This document shows, one piece after another, positions 16,982-26,291 of a DNA stretch of 29,088 nt (position 1 is its first letter; the number at the start of each line of letters is the position of its first letter). The notes under the pieces were generated by a model that searched no databases, was not told where the DNA came from, and saw nothing but the letters and a program-made list of their open reading frames with translations. This stretch comes from a virus, in the IMG/VR virus record IMGVR_UViG_3300038405_000387, positions 1-29,088 of that record. One strand, 5' to 3'. The translations under genes and the position numbers were made by a program.

Positions 16982-18580
16982 TTACAGCCGTTTGAGAATA
17001 CGCAGGCGGCCCGGTGTGACGAGAAGCCGACGTTTGCCCGACGACGCCAGTGACACGAACAGTGTGTCCGGCAGCGCTGACCATTCGATCGGCAAGAACG
17101 CATCGGCGCTGAGCGGAACTACGGTCGCACCTAGCCATTCTACCTGTCCTGGCGCGTTGAGGCCGACGATAGCAGCGAACTCACTGGCCACCGGGATATC
17201 CCGAAGCGACCACGTCAGCCATTCAGTAGCGACACGCTGATCAGCAATAGCTTCTACCACCCACCCGACGCGGCCGGCCGTATCGCACGCGACCCCGCCA
17301 CTGAGCTCAAGCAGAAAGGCGAGAGGGCAGCCCAGCATAGCCACCGATTCCAATCGTATTCCAAGGTCACGGCTTGCGGCTGCGAGAGACTCGAAGGGCA
17401 GCCAGCCATCGGGCCGGCTCCTTGCCAGCATCTCCGTTGAAAGACCCGCGTTGTTTTGGGCGGTAGCTACAGACTCGCATAATGAGGGCGGATCGTTGCG
17501 CTCTGTTGCGAGGAACTCGAGCTGGGTCTCTGCCTCGGCTATTTGGCTCGCCAGAAACGCGACCGGGTTAGGTGCATCCGCAATGACGGTCGTCGTGCTG
17601 CTGGGCGTGTAGGTGATGACGATGATGCCCTGCGCGCCGTTGCCCCCAGCGCCAGCATTGGCATTATTTGAACCAGCCCAGCCACCACCGCCGCCGCCAC
17701 CGCCGTAATTTCCACCATTACCACCAGCGCCAGCATGCTCAGGAGCATTGCGACCACCGCCACCGCCACCACCGCCTCCGGCGCCGTGTGAGGAATCCCA
17801 CTCGATTCCGGCACCACCGGCCCCACCGGCCCCAGCGGTGCTGCCAACAACCCCGGTATTATTGATCCCACCGCCGCCGCCACCTCCGGAGCCGTGCGAT
17901 CCGGCGCTGCCCGGATTGCCGTTGCCGCTGGTCCCGCCGGTACCGCCGGCTCCTCCAGCGGTCCCATCCTGTGCAGTACCACCGGTCGCTCCAGTAGTAG
18001 CCCCAGAGCCCGCATCTGATCCGGCTGTCCCACTGCCACCGGCACTGCTTGCCGGGTCTCCGGTTCCACCACCACTGGAACCAGCGTAAGCTGCCGTTGT
18101 AGACGAGCCGCCCGCGAGTCCGGCACCCTTCGGTCCGCCGGCCCCACCGCCGCCGCCACCCTGCCAGCCCAGGAACGCCGTGCCAGCGCCTCCGCCGCCG
18201 CCATTCCATTTTGTGGTGCCTACGCCCGAGGCTGCGGCGCCGCCCGCGCCAGCCGTTCCGTTCGAGAGACCGGCGCCGCCGGCTTTTGCGAGTACCGTGC
18301 TGGTATCCTTAAACCACGTGTCGGTACCCGCTGATCCGTTGTTGGGGCCGGCCGCGCCCCCACCGCCGCCGGCCCCGACCTGAATGCTGATCGAGCCGCT
18401 TAATCCGGCGAGATTGCTGGAAGAACTATAGGCGCCGCCGCCACCGGCCGCTCCGTCAGCCACCGATATGTTCGGCGAGGCACCACCGCCCCCGCCCCCA
18501 ATGGCCTCAATCGAATTGGTGCTGCTCCAGTCGCCCGGTAGCGGGAAGCTGGTGCCGGACAGCAGGAATATCCGGGTCAT
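16982..18580 (-). CDS. Polyglycine-rich tail adhesin / fibre tip
   Basis: A 532-residue protein. The N-terminus (MTRIFLLSGTSFPLPGDWSS, then NSIEAIGGGGGG) leads to some 300 residues dominated by Gly runs mixed with Ala, Ser, Thr and Asn (about residues 28-325), ending GIIVITYTP. This is the layout of Gly-rich fibre-tip adhesins, in which Gly-rich segments pack as polyglycine-II helices, as known for phage S16 gp38. Residues 330-532 form a separate C-terminal region with loosely repeated E/W-containing units (TEWLTWSLRDIPVASEF, VEWLGATVVPLSADAFLPIE). The ATG overlaps the previous stop (ATGA). It probably binds a host surface receptor (inference). Confidence 0.78.
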   Translation of the reverse strand: MTRIFLLSGTSFPLPGDWSSTNSIEAIGGGGGGASPNISVADGAAGGGGAYSSSSNLAGLSGSISIQVGAGGGGGAAGPNNGSAGTDTWFKDTSTVLAKAGGAGLSNGTAGAGGAAASGVGTTKWNGGGGGAGTAFLGWQGGGGGGAGGPKGAGLAGGSSTTAAYAGSSGGGTGDPASSAGGSGTAGSDAGSGATTGATGGTAQDGTAGGAGGTGGTSGNGNPGSAGSHGSGGGGGGGINNTGVVGSTAGAGGAGGAGIEWDSSHGAGGGGGGGGGRNAPEHAGAGGNGGNYGGGGGGGGWAGSNNANAGAGGNGAQGIIVITYTPSSTTTVIADAPNPVAFLASQIAEAETQLEFLATERNDPPSLCESVATAQNNAGLSTEMLARSRPDGWLPFESLAAASRDLGIRLESVAMLGCPLAFLLELSGGVACDTAGRVGWVVEAIADQRVATEWLTWSLRDIPVASEFAAIVGLNAPGQVEWLGATVVPLSADAFLPIEWSALPDTLFVSLASSGKRRLLVTPGRLRILKRL

Positions 18581-20165: not shown

Positions 20166-21545
20166 TTATTCGCCGACTGTCCTTGCAAGGGTCTCCGTTT
20201 TTGGCCCGACAGAGTTGCCCAGCGGAACCGGCCCTTGAGCGGTCAGAAACATAGGCGCGTCACCACCCTCTACCGGATCGAGTCCCAGGACGTCGCGTGC
20301 CTCGTTCAGGCTGAAGATGCCGTCCTTGACGTAGCTGGTGAGAATTATCGATTGGTCCTTGGGATCCGTCGGCCGTACATCCGACCAAGCGAATTCGAGG
20401 TCGCTTTGGCCCATACGCTTCTGGATGACGCTATCGACGAGCCGCTTAACCCAGCCCATCAGCGGAGCTAAGCCTTCCTCCAGAGCGGCTTCCTGCGCGG
20501 TCTGCGCCGTCGCCCGATTCACCTGCGGGGTGAATGCGGTCGGTGGCAACGAGAACGCATAACAGACGATCCGTGCCAGCCACTCGTCGAAATCATCCTT
20601 GTAGGGGGCCTCCTTGAAGGCCTGGTACTTGACGCCGCCCGGTCCCCAGAGCAGGCGCGTGCGGCCGCCAGTATTGCCGGCGAGGATGGAGTCGAACCAC
20701 TCCTGGTATTGGTGGATCTGCTCGGCGTTCCAGCCATCCGGCGCGGCCATCAGCCCGGACGGGACATTACCTTCGGTAAAGTGTTGCAGTTGCATAACCT
20801 GTCGACGCAGCCCGATGTTGACCGTCAGGACGATCTGCTCGACAGGGCTGAACCCGTATGCCTTGTGCGGGCGACGGTTGCGCGGCAGGTAGATCAGCTC
20901 GGCGTCGCTTAGGAGGCGCCACGGCCGGCCATGGATCACCTGCTCATATGCCGGCGCTGGCGACTGCGGCCGACGTCCGGTGTCATCGACCAGCACCTTG
21001 ATCGTCGACCCGTCGACGACATCGAGGCCAATAATATCGCCGCCGCGGTTGCGACGTACTTCGAAGGCGGGTGCATCGAGCACTAGGACATCCTCGAGCG
21101 CCTCACGAAGCCACGTCGCAAAGGGTTGCTCGCCGTCGGGCATGTGCCAGAACTCGGTCAACCGCTCAATGCGGGCTGGAGCATCCGCCGCCGGATTGCG
21201 ATCGTCGCGCGATTTGATCGTCCACTCGAGCTTCTCGATTTGGTCCTTGCGCGTCTCGATCGCGAGCCGTGTAATATCGTGGCTTTCAGCCAAGGCTCTC
21301 AGCTCGTCGAAGCCGATCGGCTCGTAAGAGCGCGGTGTGTAGATCGTGTTGTAGCCGACCGGAAAATCCCACAGTCGCACCCGCTCGCGCTCGGGCGGTA
21401 CCAGCGGATAGCTGGGGGAAAAGATCCCCTGGCCGGGCTGGAAGACATCGCGAAATTGGGTAATATCGTTCTGCGAACCCCAACCGCCCCAGGTGTACGA
21501 CGCGATCGGCGCCAAGGGGGTCCGCTTTCCGCCGGCGGGTGGCAT
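20166..21545 (-). CDS. Phage portal protein (HK97 gp3 type)
   Basis: A 459-residue portal protein, the dodecameric ring at the capsid vertex through which DNA is packaged and released. Family features in order: PVGYNTIYTPRSYEPIGFDE, the helix LAIETRKDQIEKLEWTIKSR, WLREALEDVLVLDAPAFEV, ELIYLPRNRRPHKAYGFSPV, the long helix QVMQLQHFTEGNVPSGLMAA, and the late segment YAFSLPPTAFTPQVNRATAQ with SYVKDGIFSLNEARDVLGLD. Length is normal for HK97-type portals. GGAG lies seven bases before the ATG. Confidence 0.96.
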   Translation of the reverse strand: MPPAGGKRTPLAPIASYTWGGWGSQNDITQFRDVFQPGQGIFSPSYPLVPPERERVRLWDFPVGYNTIYTPRSYEPIGFDELRALAESHDITRLAIETRKDQIEKLEWTIKSRDDRNPAADAPARIERLTEFWHMPDGEQPFATWLREALEDVLVLDAPAFEVRRNRGGDIIGLDVVDGSTIKVLVDDTGRRPQSPAPAYEQVIHGRPWRLLSDAELIYLPRNRRPHKAYGFSPVEQIVLTVNIGLRRQVMQLQHFTEGNVPSGLMAAPDGWNAEQIHQYQEWFDSILAGNTGGRTRLLWGPGGVKYQAFKEAPYKDDFDEWLARIVCYAFSLPPTAFTPQVNRATAQTAQEAALEEGLAPLMGWVKRLVDSVIQKRMGQSDLEFAWSDVRPTDPKDQSIILTSYVKDGIFSLNEARDVLGLDPVEGGDAPMFLTAQGPVPLGNSVGPKTETLARTVGE

Positions 21546-21586: not shown

Positions 21587-24154
21587 TCAATAACCTCCGG
21601 TGATCGCGACGCGCTTCCAGGTGTTCGGCGCGGTACAGATGTAAAGGAAACTGGCGTCGTGCGTCATCTGGTTGGTCGTGCAGGCCGACGAAGACGCCGG
21701 CGAGCCCGAGCTGATCAGACCGCCTAGATTGTTGAGCGTCTGCGGTGTTGCGGTGACAACCCGGAAGTTCGAGCCGTCGAATTGTAGCGTTGCATATTCG
21801 TAATTCTGACCGGCCGCCAGGGTGATCGAGTTGCTCGACACGCCACCGCCCGCCGGGACCAGGATTTTTCCCCCGGCGACGCCATTGACCTGGACGGTCA
21901 TTGTCTTGCCGTTGTCGGTCGCAAAGCCCATGGTCCACCCGGTACCGATCGACGTCGCCGACGGCAGGGTCATGATCAGCGAGGATGTGGGCGTATTGTA
22001 GCTCGACACCGCATTGCCATTGTCGCTCTGCGAGGCCGCGTAGGTGCCGACCGCCGGGAAACTCCATCGGTTGATGCCGGGGGCGTTGCCGGAGATCCCG
22101 ATCTGGGTCGCCGTCGCCGGTGTCGCCTCGACAACCCGGAAGTTGCCGCCATCGAACTGCAGCACGAGGAGCTCGTAATTTCCGGATGCCAGCGACGCGG
22201 AGGTCACGGTGCCACCGCTACCGGGAAACAAGATGTGGCCGCCGGAGGCGCTGTTTACTTGAACGGACGCGGTCTTGTTGCTGTCGCTGGCGATCCCGAT
22301 CGTCCAACCCATCGGAAGCGTTGTGGTCGACGGCAGTGTCACCGTGAAGAACGAGAGCGGGCTATTGAAGCTCGACACCACACTCCCGTTGTCGGCGACG
22401 GCTGCAGCGTAAGCGCTGACTGCTGGAAAATTCCAATGACTGGTCCCGCCGGCGCCGATCATGCCGATTGCCTGCGCCGTCGCCGGCGTCGCGTCAACGA
22501 CTCGGAAATTGCCGCTCCCGTCATATTGCAGAACCAGAAACTCGTAGGCGCCCTGGGCGGTGTTCGCTAGGGTCAACGTCGTCGCCAACGCGCCTGATCC
22601 AGGCCAGACGATGTGCCCGCCCGATGTTCCATTGACCTGAACCGATAGCGGCTTCGTGCTATCGGTCGCAAAACCCATGCTCCATCCCGTCGGCAACGTG
22701 GTCGTCGCGGGCAGGGTCACGCTCAGTCCTGCGGTCGTGTTGAAGCTCGACAGGGTATTGCCATTGTCCCCCAATGTCGCCGCGTAGCCCGAGGTCGAAG
22801 GGTAGAGCCAGTTGCTAGGCCAGGGAGGTGGCTCGAACCCATTGACGAGACGCGTGTTGCGTGTCGAGAAGATGATTCGCCAGTTATTGCCGTCGGATTG
22901 CAGGGCAACGCTCTCATAGTTACCCGGCCCCAGGACGATCGACGACACCGACTTACCGCCCGACAAGATCGCTCCGGATGGAGCAATGACGGTCATGCCC
23001 TTGCCGTTATCCGTCGCAAAACCCATTGTCCAGCCGGGATTCACGCTGCCAACGGCCGGAAGGGTTACGGTCAGCGACGCGCCGGGGGCGTTGTAGCTCG
23101 AGATATTCAGCCCGTCGTCGACAGGGGCCGCGGTATAGCTCGCCGTCGAGGGGAAATACCATCGGCTGCGCGACCCGCTTCCGATAACCGTTATTCCTGT
23201 CGAGGACGGCCCGAAATTGACCGTTGCGCCGCCGTAGTTCGGGTTGATCAGCACGTTTCCAATACTGGCCGTCGCGTTGACTGCTGTCTGGCAGTTGAAA
23301 TACGGTGAGACAAACGTATTGAGGCCATTGTGGTTGAAGGTAATCGAGAGGCAGGTTGGCGAAACCTCGAGATCGAGCCCGAAGAACGTGTTGCTGAAAT
23401 TGTATCCATTTTCGAGCACCAGGCTCCGGCCACCGATGCCCTGCGCAGTGCCGGCGCCCGAGATCCGCGAGAATTGTGTTTGTTCGAGCGCTATCCCGGC
23501 GGCCCCTCCGGCTGACACGCAAACAGCGTAAATGTCGCTGTCGAGAACGAAGTTGAACTGGCATCCGCCGGAGGCGGGCGCGGTACTGGTATTATTAACG
23601 ATCAGATGATCGACCTTCACCGAATTATGCGCGTCGGAGAAATCCGTCTTACCGAGCACCACCGCATAAGTCGGGGTGCTGGCGTTGATGAATAGGCTTC
23701 CGTCTTCCCTAAAGTAAAAGCATCCGGTTGGGCTGCTGGTTGAGCCGCCGCCACACTGGATCTGCAGCACCGGGCCCGAAGCGATCGCGCGCCCATCGAT
23801 CGTCGCCCCCTCCGAGTTCAGCCTAAAACCTTTGGACGCCTGACCTGCGTAGTCGATCGAGATCGCCGAGGTAACCTTATAGGTGCCGGCGGAGAAATGC
23901 ACCGGCCAGTTGTTGGTGATTGCCGTCGAAATTGTCGTATTGATCGCTGTCGTGTCGTCATGACTGTCGTCACCGACGGCACCATTGCACCGCACATCGA
24001 TCCAAGGGCGTCCCGAGCACATCAGCACGTCGCCGCCCATCGTCGCGGTACCGGTAGTCGACAATGTCGAGAAATTGCCTGGCGACTGCGCAAAGGTCGG
24101 CAAGGCCACGCCCAGACCGAAGGCGAATGCAGCAAGCCAGAGCACGCGCTTCAC
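21587..24154 (-). CDS. Secreted pectate-lyase-fold tailspike with four repeat modules
   Basis: An 855-residue protein. A GTG at 24154 gives a signal peptide (KRVLWLAAFAFGLGVALPTF then AQ), unusual for a phage tail protein. Next comes a start typical of pectate-lyase superfamily spikes (IDVRCNGAVGDDSHDDTTAI), then a beta-helix of roughly 250 residues. Then follow four tandem modules of 117-125 residues, each with an N-terminal FP strand, SSFN or SSYN, a GWTMGFATD-like strand and a closing FRVV or similar. It ends in a short cap with TNQMTHDASFLYICTAPNTW. The frame is open further up to 24433, but that part is a REP repeat and not counted. It probably binds or degrades a surface polysaccharide (inference). 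Confidence 0.78.
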   Translation of the reverse strand: MKRVLWLAAFAFGLGVALPTFAQSPGNFSTLSTTGTATMGGDVLMCSGRPWIDVRCNGAVGDDSHDDTTAINTTISTAITNNWPVHFSAGTYKVTSAISIDYAGQASKGFRLNSEGATIDGRAIASGPVLQIQCGGGSTSSPTGCFYFREDGSLFINASTPTYAVVLGKTDFSDAHNSVKVDHLIVNNTSTAPASGGCQFNFVLDSDIYAVCVSAGGAAGIALEQTQFSRISGAGTAQGIGGRSLVLENGYNFSNTFFGLDLEVSPTCLSITFNHNGLNTFVSPYFNCQTAVNATASIGNVLINPNYGGATVNFGPSSTGITVIGSGSRSRWYFPSTASYTAAPVDDGLNISSYNAPGASLTVTLPAVGSVNPGWTMGFATDNGKGMTVIAPSGAILSGGKSVSSIVLGPGNYESVALQSDGNNWRIIFSTRNTRLVNGFEPPPWPSNWLYPSTSGYAATLGDNGNTLSSFNTTAGLSVTLPATTTLPTGWSMGFATDSTKPLSVQVNGTSGGHIVWPGSGALATTLTLANTAQGAYEFLVLQYDGSGNFRVVDATPATAQAIGMIGAGGTSHWNFPAVSAYAAAVADNGSVVSSFNSPLSFFTVTLPSTTTLPMGWTIGIASDSNKTASVQVNSASGGHILFPGSGGTVTSASLASGNYELLVLQFDGGNFRVVEATPATATQIGISGNAPGINRWSFPAVGTYAASQSDNGNAVSSYNTPTSSLIMTLPSATSIGTGWTMGFATDNGKTMTVQVNGVAGGKILVPAGGGVSSNSITLAAGQNYEYATLQFDGSNFRVVTATPQTLNNLGGLISSGSPASSSACTTNQMTHDASFLYICTAPNTWKRVAITGGY
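21720..23163 (-). repeat. Four tandem protein-repeat modules in tailspike
   Basis: Aligned on the Trp before the FP or YP strand, modules start at 23161, 22810, 22435 and 22066 and run leftward, with spacings of 351, 375 and 369 bases. Shared points are DNG or DDG, SSFN/SSYN, VTLP or MTLP, GWTMGFATD or a close form, and an end of the form YE-x-LQ-D-G-N-FRV. Modules 2 to 4 are closer to one another than to module 1. Divergence shows the duplication is not recent. Confidence 0.8.
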
Positions 24155-24387
24155 CAATGGGTTAGCGTCACCCCCGCGAACGCTGTCTTTCGTCGGCCCA
24201 TGGGTGCTTCGAGACGCGCTCTTCGAGCGCTCCTCAGGATGAGGGGTATCGCTGATGATCCTAAGATGATTCCTCGTCCTGAGGAGGCCGCGGAGCGGCC
24301 GTCTCGAAGGACGCGCCGGGTTGATCCAAACGACTGACACTGCCGAATTCATCGCCGGGTCAGCCTGTGCGGGGTCGCATGGCGGCA
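24155..24387. other. Non-coding gap holding the REP doublet
   Basis: A 233-base gap between two structural genes. Most of it is a paired palindromic repeat (24207-24310). A minus-strand frame is open through it but encodes Arg/Ser-rich sequence typical of translated repeats. I see no promoter or terminator with a T run here. Confidence 0.6.
24207..24310. repeat. REP-like palindromic doublet of alphaproteobacterial host type
   Basis: Two related palindromes face each other. Unit A (24207-24244) opens CTTCGAGACG, has the stem GCGCTC-TTC-GAGCGC and closes CCTCAGGATGAGG. Unit B (24272-24310) opens CCTCGTCCTGAGG, has the stem GGCCGC-GGA-GCGGCC and closes CGTCTCGAAGG. The ends CTTCGAGACG and CGTCTCGAAG are exact reverse complements. 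I recall this layout from chromosomal REP elements of Bradyrhizobium-like bacteria. It sits inside the phage operon, just before the tailspike signal peptide. Confidence 0.82.
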
Positions 24388-24825
24388 TTACCACCTGCGT
24401 GCCGCAAATGCCTGGCCCGTTGCGCCGCCCCAAAGGCTGACGGCGCCTGCCGGTTTATAGCCGGAAGGCGTTACGAACACCGCACCCGCAGCAATCGGGA
24501 TCGACGCACCGCCCGGTGTCGCCGTGCCGACATCGCTCACATAGAGGATCGCCGATGAATTGTTGGCGACGAGGTAGCCGTTAACCGGGACGATCCCGGC
24601 GAACAGCGTCTGCGCGGTACCCCCTGCGACTATGGTCGCGCTGCCGTCGATTGCGACTGCGCCGCAGGTGTTGATGACCGGAAAAGGTGCCGTCAGGCCA
24701 ACCGGTGTTGCAATGCCGCCGACCACCGCCGCCGGCACGTGCACTGGCACGAGATTGCCTGCAATATCGGACTGCGTCGAAATCGGCTGGGTCGTCGTGT
24801 TCGCGTCTTTGACCAAGAGCGTCAA
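24388..24825 (-). CDS. Structural protein with fibre-type beta domain
   Basis: A 145-residue protein. The second half has the pattern GGTAQTLFAGIVPVNGYLVA, NNSSAILYVSDVGTATPGGA and AGAVSLWGGATGQAFAARRW, a beta domain that I know from phage fibre and head-associated structural proteins of proteobacteria. The start is a TTG at 24825 with a strong AAGGAG eight bases upstream; no ATG fits. The gene lies between terminase and tailspike, so a small decoration or fibre-linker role is likely (inference). Confidence 0.75.
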   Translation of the reverse strand: MTLLVKDANTTTQPISTQSDIAGNLVPVHVPAAVVGGIATPVGLTAPFPVINTCGAVAIDGSATIVAGGTAQTLFAGIVPVNGYLVANNSSAILYVSDVGTATPGGASIPIAAGAVFVTPSGYKPAGAVSLWGGATGQAFAARRW

Positions 24826-24941: not shown

Positions 24942-26291
24942 CTAGGAGCGGGCCTTCTCGGCGAGCTGACGGGTGTACTCGAAGATCCCCTCATTGGGCA
25001 TCGGCTCGAGCAGGAGATTGGTCAACGCCCACACCAGGGCGTCGACCCGGTCGGGCGATCCCGCCGAGCGCAAGTCGACATCGCCGTGGCCCGCGCGCAC
25101 AAAGGCGCACATCTGATCTTCGAGCTGCGGGAAGGTACCGACATGGTGAATCCGGCCCTGCTCGTAAAGCGCCGCCACCGGCTCGGCCCGGGTAACCTTG
25201 CCGCGTGAGGCGCGCACCGCTGCAAAAGGTACGTTCGGATCGATCGCTCGCAAGATCGCCTCGACCATCTCGCCACCGTGGTTTACCTCGGCAACGATCC
25301 GGTCGGCGCGGTGCGCGCGATAGGTTGAAATCGCTGTCTTCGCCCATTCCGTCGGCTGGTAACGGCCGGACACGTCGGCGAGTACCCAGCCCTGCCCTTG
25401 CCCGTCCTTGCCGGTGACGATGATGCCGGTTTCGTCGGCGTCAACGGTCGAGGTCGCGGCCGGGTCGATCGCCACCACCACTCTGATCAATGACGGCGCA
25501 GTCTGCGCTCGGGCCGCCTCGATGATACCGCGAGTCCAGAGCGCACCCGGCACGTCGTCAAGGAGCTCGGCCTCAAGTTCCTGGCGGCCGAGGCGCGTCC
25601 CCTCGTATTTGCGGATGATCTGATCCAGGAAGGCTGGCGCCAGATTCGCGCGGTTCTCATAAGTCGAGCCACGCGTCACCACGGCCGTAGGATCGGCCAT
25701 CAGCGCTCGGATCAACTTGGTCGGCCGCGGTGTCGTGGTGACCACAACACGCGGGTCGGTGCCCAACCGCAGCCCGAACATCATCATGTCCCAGGCCTCG
25801 GGATAGCGCCAACTGCCGAGCTCATCGCACCACGTAGCATCATGCTGTGGCCCGCGCAGGCGCTCGGGTTCGTCGGCGCTGTAGAGCGTCGCGATGGCGC
25901 CGTTCGGCCACGTCAGTCGCCGCTTCGATGGCTCGTAACGCGGCCGGTCCCAAGGCGGCGAGATCGCTAGAATGCCACTTTCGCCTTCGACCATCACATT
26001 TCGTGCGTCGGCGGCAGTTGGTGCAACGAGCGCCAGGCGGCGCGCCGTCCACGCCGCCACCCTCGCGCGGATCAGCTCGGCGCCCGTTCGGGTCTTGCCG
26101 AATCCGCGGCCGGCGAGAAGAAGCCACACCCGCCAGTTGCCCTGGGGCGGTAGCTGCGCCGGGCGCGCCCAGAATGGCCAATCATAGAGCAGAGCTCGTG
26201 CCTCGGCGGCGCTCAATGCGGCGGCGAGTTCGCTTCTCGCGGGCTCGGGTAGCGAAGCGAGCCAACCCGCGCGCAAGCCCCTCACCTGCAT
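24942..26291 (-). CDS. terL: Terminase large subunit (TerL)
   Basis: A 449-residue packaging motor and nuclease. Motifs seen: Walker A AGRGFGKT (residues 60-67), Walker B area ATWCDELGSW with Asp156/Glu157, coupling motif VVVTTTPRP (182-190), nuclease acids Asp276 (VVAIDPAA), Glu335 (VAEVNHGG) and Asp414/Asp417 (PDRVDALVWAL). It resembles the GTA/rhizobial phage group of terminases more than the lambda group (judged by the AGRGFGKT form and short length). The ATG at 26291 is almost touching GGAGGG; a GTG at 26285 would have the same Shine-Dalgarno at better spacing, so the true start may be two codons later. A promoter candidate lies at 26406-26434. Confidence 0.95.
   Translation of the reverse strand: MQVRGLRAGWLASLPEPARSELAAALSAAEARALLYDWPFWARPAQLPPQGNWRVWLLLAGRGFGKTRTGAELIRARVAAWTARRLALVAPTAADARNVMVEGESGILAISPPWDRPRYEPSKRRLTWPNGAIATLYSADEPERLRGPQHDATWCDELGSWRYPEAWDMMMFGLRLGTDPRVVVTTTPRPTKLIRALMADPTAVVTRGSTYENRANLAPAFLDQIIRKYEGTRLGRQELEAELLDDVPGALWTRGIIEAARAQTAPSLIRVVVAIDPAATSTVDADETGIIVTGKDGQGQGWVLADVSGRYQPTEWAKTAISTYRAHRADRIVAEVNHGGEMVEAILRAIDPNVPFAAVRASRGKVTRAEPVAALYEQGRIHHVGTFPQLEDQMCAFVRAGHGDVDLRSAGSPDRVDALVWALTNLLLEPMPNEGIFEYTRQLAEKARS

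Follow-up and report, generated by a model that had tools for sequence, protein, structure and literature searches.

The window analyzed here (the whole 29,088-nt stretch of viral DNA) encodes a spike-like protein which, judging from its sequence and that of its relatives, probably leaves the infected soil-phage host cell as a free protein and is not built onto the particle inside that cell. On balance, we lean towards reading it as a chimeric, Sec-exported spike that is freed at lysis and acts on polysaccharide.

Location and Domain Composition of the Spike Gene

The spike gene, its parts and its neighbors, given in the direction of transcription, are as follows:

24942..26291 (-), terL, terminase large subunit (PF03237, PF17289)
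24388..24825 (-), s145, a 145-aa companion gene that has no signal peptide and keeps its syntenic place between terL and spike
24155..24387 (-), s145-spike gap, which contains an interspersed repeat specific to the family (core 24207-24244)
21587..24154 (-), spike gene, 855-aa precursor, GTG start (ORF list and relatives)
24089..24154 (-), predicted Sec signal peptide MKRVLWLAAFAFGLGVALPTFA, 22 codons (pN/pS and cleavage-site residues)
24029..24088 (-), short mature N-terminus, ~20 residues (pLDDT <50 across most of residues 1-18)
23174..24028 (-), right-handed beta-helix, pectate-lyase type (PF12708, AF2, cysteine pairs); its cysteine pairs, in mature numbering, are C24-C34, C112-C123, C176-C190 and C246-C266
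22823..23173 (-), repeat module 1, 117 aa (repeat comparison)
22451..22822 (-), repeat module 2, 124 aa (repeat comparison)
22079..22450 (-), repeat module 3, 124 aa (repeat comparison)
21704..22078 (-), repeat module 4, 125 aa (repeat comparison and single-module model)
21590..21703 (-), C-terminal tag with the pair C803-C818, ending in LYICTAPNTWKRVAITGGY (phrog_17312 match)
20166..21545 (-), portal protein (PF04860)

The open reading frame starts with GTG at 24154 and stops at 21587, with terL upstream, portal downstream and s145 between terL and the spike gene. In the initial annotation it had been described as a pectate-lyase-type spike with four modules of 117-125 residues, placed between terL and portal, and this description holds in each respect: the PF12708 match scores 33.6 bits against a gathering score of 27, the modules (117, 124, 124 and 125 aa) are 39-59% identical to one another, and both flanking genes were confirmed by Pfam matches, s145 being an additional gene on the terL side. 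A C-terminal stretch of 37 residues matches phrog_17312, a family of phage tail proteins, at its end (E 4.4e-9), and no particle-anchor domain was recognized at the N-terminus with Pfam and PHROGs. Sequence searches with the spike gave no match to INPHARED phages or to the PDB, the NCBIfam scan gave nothing above cut-off, and the repeat module, searched against INPHARED phages, likewise gave no match.

Evidence for the Export Signal

The precursor begins with MKRVLWLAAFAFGLGVALPTFA followed by QSPGNF, with predicted cleavage between A and Q. In two groups of closest relatives, the twenty codons preceding the signal gave a pN/pS of 1.06 and 0.88, as against 0.22 and 0.27 within the signal codons and 0.17 and 0.19 at the start of the mature spike. 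By this measure, purifying selection acts on the signal codons and not on those just upstream; since the ratio is low from the signal onward and not before it, translation most plausibly begins at the signal or shortly before it. A start downstream of the signal, which would have undone the proposed Sec signal, is ruled out by these ratios together with the absence of any start codon conserved there among the spike relatives.

The end of the signal is equally constant: all 53 readable spike copies have A at -1 and A, S or T at -3, while the hydrophobic cores diverge widely (e.g., MRITSVTISAVTLLAAIWLPTPALA in locus L039 vs. MKLTATLALAIFLIPVAFCVAPARA in locus L048). Constant cleavage residues combined with divergent cores are the pattern predicted for a signal peptide, and not for a specific docking helix. 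Signal calls were made with a simple home-made rule-based scan, by which the spike was the only window protein called with a signal; the same rule called 41 of 74 pieces of spike ORFs, a number that includes fragments, and only 2 of 307 ORFs in the other window gene families, both with doubtful internal starts. Taken at the sequence level, export of the spike, and with it the Sec signal named in the initial annotation, is well supported.

Paired Cysteines

The ten cysteines of the mature window spike form five close pairs, namely the four of the beta-helix (24/34, 112/123, 176/190 and 246/266) and 803/818 of the tag. Among 46 aligned relatives, columns 176/190 hold cysteine together in 28 rows, in neither position in 18 and in one alone in none; for columns 671/690, the corresponding numbers are 18, 28 and 0. 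The cysteine count is even in 41 of the 46 sequences. As the aligned rows share kinship, the pattern reflects few evolutionary events; this gain and loss of cysteines in twos is as predicted for disulfides. In one spike clade (L002, L016, L019, L023-L032, and L058) the usual tag is replaced by another C-terminal domain with four cysteines.

Predicted Structure

Structure prediction, which had been proposed for one module and for the helix, was carried out on monomers. In the AF2 model, the beta-helix, which is small (about 285 residues), has a pLDDT of about 85-95 over most of the domain and adopts the pectate-lyase-type fold; the pTM of the whole-spike model is 0.44, and thus the placement between domains is not meaningful. 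Foldseek matches comprised phage tailspikes, polygalacturonase, alginate epimerases, and the polysaccharide lyase RbmB. Beyond the acidic and histidine residues invariant in the alignment (D160, E202, D239, E241, and H253), no catalytic site was identified.

Repeat module 4, modeled alone, gave a confident beta-sandwich (pLDDT 90.6). The matches of this fold were the KP1 fibre, CBA120 TSP4, the Pa223 capsid spike, and an Acinetobacter tailspike, followed by CpaA and StcE, with a TM of up to 0.59 (E about 1e-3) against the TSP4 fragments 7rej/7rfv. The fold matches of the helix and the module therefore suggest a front half resembling secreted cellular proteins and a back half resembling phage spikes. 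The repeat module is also carried by a fibre-like protein without a signal (L057:6634-7446).

Chromosomal Relatives in the Host Genus

Short relatives of the spike (about 300 aa), consisting of a signal-like N-terminus and a beta-helix only, were found in the chromosomes of four genomes of the host genus (L083, L085, L086, and L089), where they neighbor genes for an FtsI-like penicillin-binding protein, GST, enolase-superfamily/Lon, and NHL-repeat proteins. In the alignment, their identity to phage copies or among themselves is 45-53%, except for one pair at 73%. No spike match other than that in the window's own genome was obtained in 385 genomes sampled across the class; the chromosomal relatives therefore appear to be limited to bacteria closely related to the host. 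The tree puts two or three of these chromosomal proteins outside the phage copies; the branches of two host rows in it are very long, and its shape is compatible with beta-helix transfer between host and phage in either direction. As a part of the reading that we favor, and with the same restrained preference, we regard the spike as a chimera in which a secreted beta-helix of cellular type is joined to modules of a phage spike.

The initial annotation had suggested a secreted protein rather than a classical particle protein, and it is this suggestion that the start upstream of the signal, the paired cysteines and the chromosomal relatives with signal-like N-termini support.

Gene Order among Related Phages

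Spike relatives were found in 68 loci of IMG/VR and 5 of species genomes, with terL, s145, spike and portal repeatedly arranged in this order. An independent portal-anchored search, limited to the 40 loci in which 2.5 kb or more lies upstream of portal, placed the spike between the terL side and portal in 35. The spike is absent from this site in L146, L151, L172, and L173: in L146, terL, s145 and portal are present, in L151 a different gene occupies the slot, and in L172 and L173 both s145 and spike are missing. Given the same site in most loci and exceptions such as L146, the gene is, as far as gene order tells, long resident yet dispensable. Two relatives with signal-like N-termini lie elsewhere, one after the tape-measure region (L006) and one directly after the tail-tip gene (L101).

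The spike start lies within a few bases of the s145 stop, adjoining or overlapping it, in about one third of loci, and a search of the s145-spike gap of the window yielded neither a promoter-like nor a terminator-like site. Co-expression with the late genes is supported by the proximity of the spike start to the s145 stop and by the lack of a promoter-like site in the gap. Recent acquisition as a moron is not supported, in view of the synteny and the operon register with s145; for a gene that these comparisons place as operon-embedded and long resident, the label "moron", which the initial annotation had proposed, fits poorly.

We also considered a head spike with s145 as the base and the spike as the fibre, for which the RcGTA head spikes provide a model (PMC7296036). 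As s145 occurs without the spike (L146 and L166) and has no signal, joint cytoplasmic assembly of the two proteins is unlikely.

Companion ORFs with Signal-Like N-Termini

In related phages, more signal-like ORFs are located around the spike and after portal. Three of them, with signal-like N-termini, match GDSL esterases (L008:13735-14463, L060:5522-7222, and L038:10334-11836), and two signal-like ORFs have weak alpha/beta-hydrolase matches (L007:6818-10636 and L071:3412-7090). These arrangements suggest that the cluster regularly accommodates exported accessory proteins, which may form an exported kit among the packaging/head genes. The spike is the only protein of this kind in the window itself. 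Another signal-like ORF was noted in the spike/portal region of L053 (9758-12419). A glycine-rich 532-aa ORF of the window (16982-18580) has no family match, and the same slot holds signal-bearing ORFs in L007.

Proposed Mechanism and Alternative Explanations

In the mechanism that we propose, the N-terminal beta-helix would be of the kind that the host genus encodes as short chromosomal signal-like proteins, and the C-terminal part, four beta-sandwich modules and the tag, would be of phage spike/fibre type. The spike would be translated together with the late packaging/head genes and carried by Sec across the inner membrane, with cleavage between A and Q, and disulfides would stabilize it in the periplasm. 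The next step, release at lysis along with the progeny, is proposed because a folded trimer would otherwise have to cross the outer membrane. The soluble spike would then bind or cleave polysaccharide of the envelope, capsule or matrix, of the producer as well as of its neighbors, and this action may help particles to escape or to reach new cells. The trimer, the catalysis and the substrate are putative and are deduced from the predicted fold alone. The small size of the helix and the search for a catalytic site, which yielded nothing beyond the invariant residues, weigh against this reading. Two further points speak against a free spike, namely the resemblance of the modules and tag to particle proteins and the position of the L101 relative after a tail-tip gene.

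These last two points lead to the alternative that survives best, although we consider it rather unlikely: the exported spike would mature in the periplasm and, once the cell has lysed, use its phage-type modules or its tag to dock on the progeny. The likeness of the modules to CBA120 TSP4, the Pa223 capsid spike and the KP1 fibre, the tail-like tag (phrog_17312), the syntenic place within the packaging/head cluster, and the tail-tip position in L101 would all suit such docking, but the spike has no recognized anchor domain and no precedent was found in the literature searched. It is quite unlikely that there is a two-compartment route in which the receptor-binding spike of a tailed phage, matured by host Sec and disulfide formation, would be mounted from outside after lysis.

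A role in lysogenic conversion is an unlikely alternative too. Expressed from the prophage and exported, the protein would alter the surface polysaccharide of the host, blocking superinfection or changing the matrix; the export signal, the chromosomal cousins in the host genus, and the nature of the window as a prophage adjoining an S24-type repressor gene are in line with this. However, the gene sits inside the packaging/head cluster and no promoter-like site was found in front of it, which makes expression in a repressed lysogen doubtful.

That the protein is an ordinary virion tailspike, with the hydrophobic N-terminus serving as an uncleaved docking segment, accords with the spike-like fold and modules and is nevertheless highly improbable, as the signal features persist while the hydrophobic core diverges, the A at the signal end is conserved in 53 of 53 copies, the cysteine pairs covary, and the chromosomal relatives have signal-like N-termini. 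The idea that a host gene was swept into the window through misassembly of the metagenome-derived genome, a draft of 423 contigs, is refuted by the identical gene order across dozens of independent viral contigs.

Comparison with Known Systems and Significance

When compared with what defines virion tailspikes, the protein has the beta-helix, lacks a recognizable N-terminal anchor and, contrary to the cytoplasmic type, has an export signal. Among known systems, the free, exported spike that we favor recalls WceF of Pantoea stewartii, a bacterial, exported tailspike-like enzyme modifying exopolysaccharide (PMC7949094), with which it shares export and a tailspike-like right-handed beta-helix. 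However, WceF has a Tat signal and not a Sec signal, its gene lies in an EPS biosynthesis cluster and not in a phage late packaging/head cluster, and it is a proven trimer, whereas the window spike has extra C-terminal modules and a putative activity. The RcGTA tailspike TspA, proposed to act also as a soluble depolymerase released at lysis (PMC13420450, preprint), is likewise a phage-derived spike of an alphaproteobacterial element with the same lysis-release idea, but it is loosely attached to the baseplate, and the words "signal peptide" are absent from the preprint text (PMC13420450).

The module may be akin to the XD1-type domains of TSP4 and T4 gp10: it matches 7rej/7rfv and also CpaA and StcE, and the CBA120 TSP4 paper named the latter two as neighbors of the trimeric spacer domain XD1 (PMC8825819). 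In TSP4, however, the modules are N-terminal and on the particle side, whereas the four modules of the spike follow the helix C-terminally in an exported protein. Phage late proteins using host Sec are exemplified by the secreted endolysin Lys44 of phage fOg44 and by SAR endolysins (reviewed in PMC6116005), but these are peptidoglycan hydrolases of the lysis cassette and not spike-fold proteins of a packaging/head cluster. No tailed-phage spike with a cleaved signal was described in the open-licence papers searched.

The authors of the RcGTA preprint (2026) stated that they know of no soluble depolymerase which phages encode specifically for the biofilm matrix, reasoning that a free depolymerase would be diluted away (PMC13420450). 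A phage lineage keeping an exported spike-fold protein within its packaging/head cluster, in places beside exported esterases, is a direct and testable candidate exception. It should be stressed that a structural-gene position combined with a spike-like fold is insufficient to call a protein a part of the particle, which bears on how polysaccharide-enzyme genes of soil viruses are interpreted, either as tools of infection or as genes for secreted enzymes.

Prophage-Like Element and Interspersed Repeat

Positions 580-28136 of the window form a prophage-like element of about 27.5 kb with a GTA-type tail-tip match (Rcc01698_C), bordered by host-type genes on the left and by the S24-type repressor gene on the right. 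The core of the repeat in the s145-spike gap (16-mer CCTCATCCTGAGGAGC) occurs once in this genome, is absent from 8 of 8 congeners and gave no match in a search against plasmids, while other genera of the host family carry up to about 100 copies of it. It may be a footprint of passage through another genus, and the same core is present in the s145-spike gap of L038.
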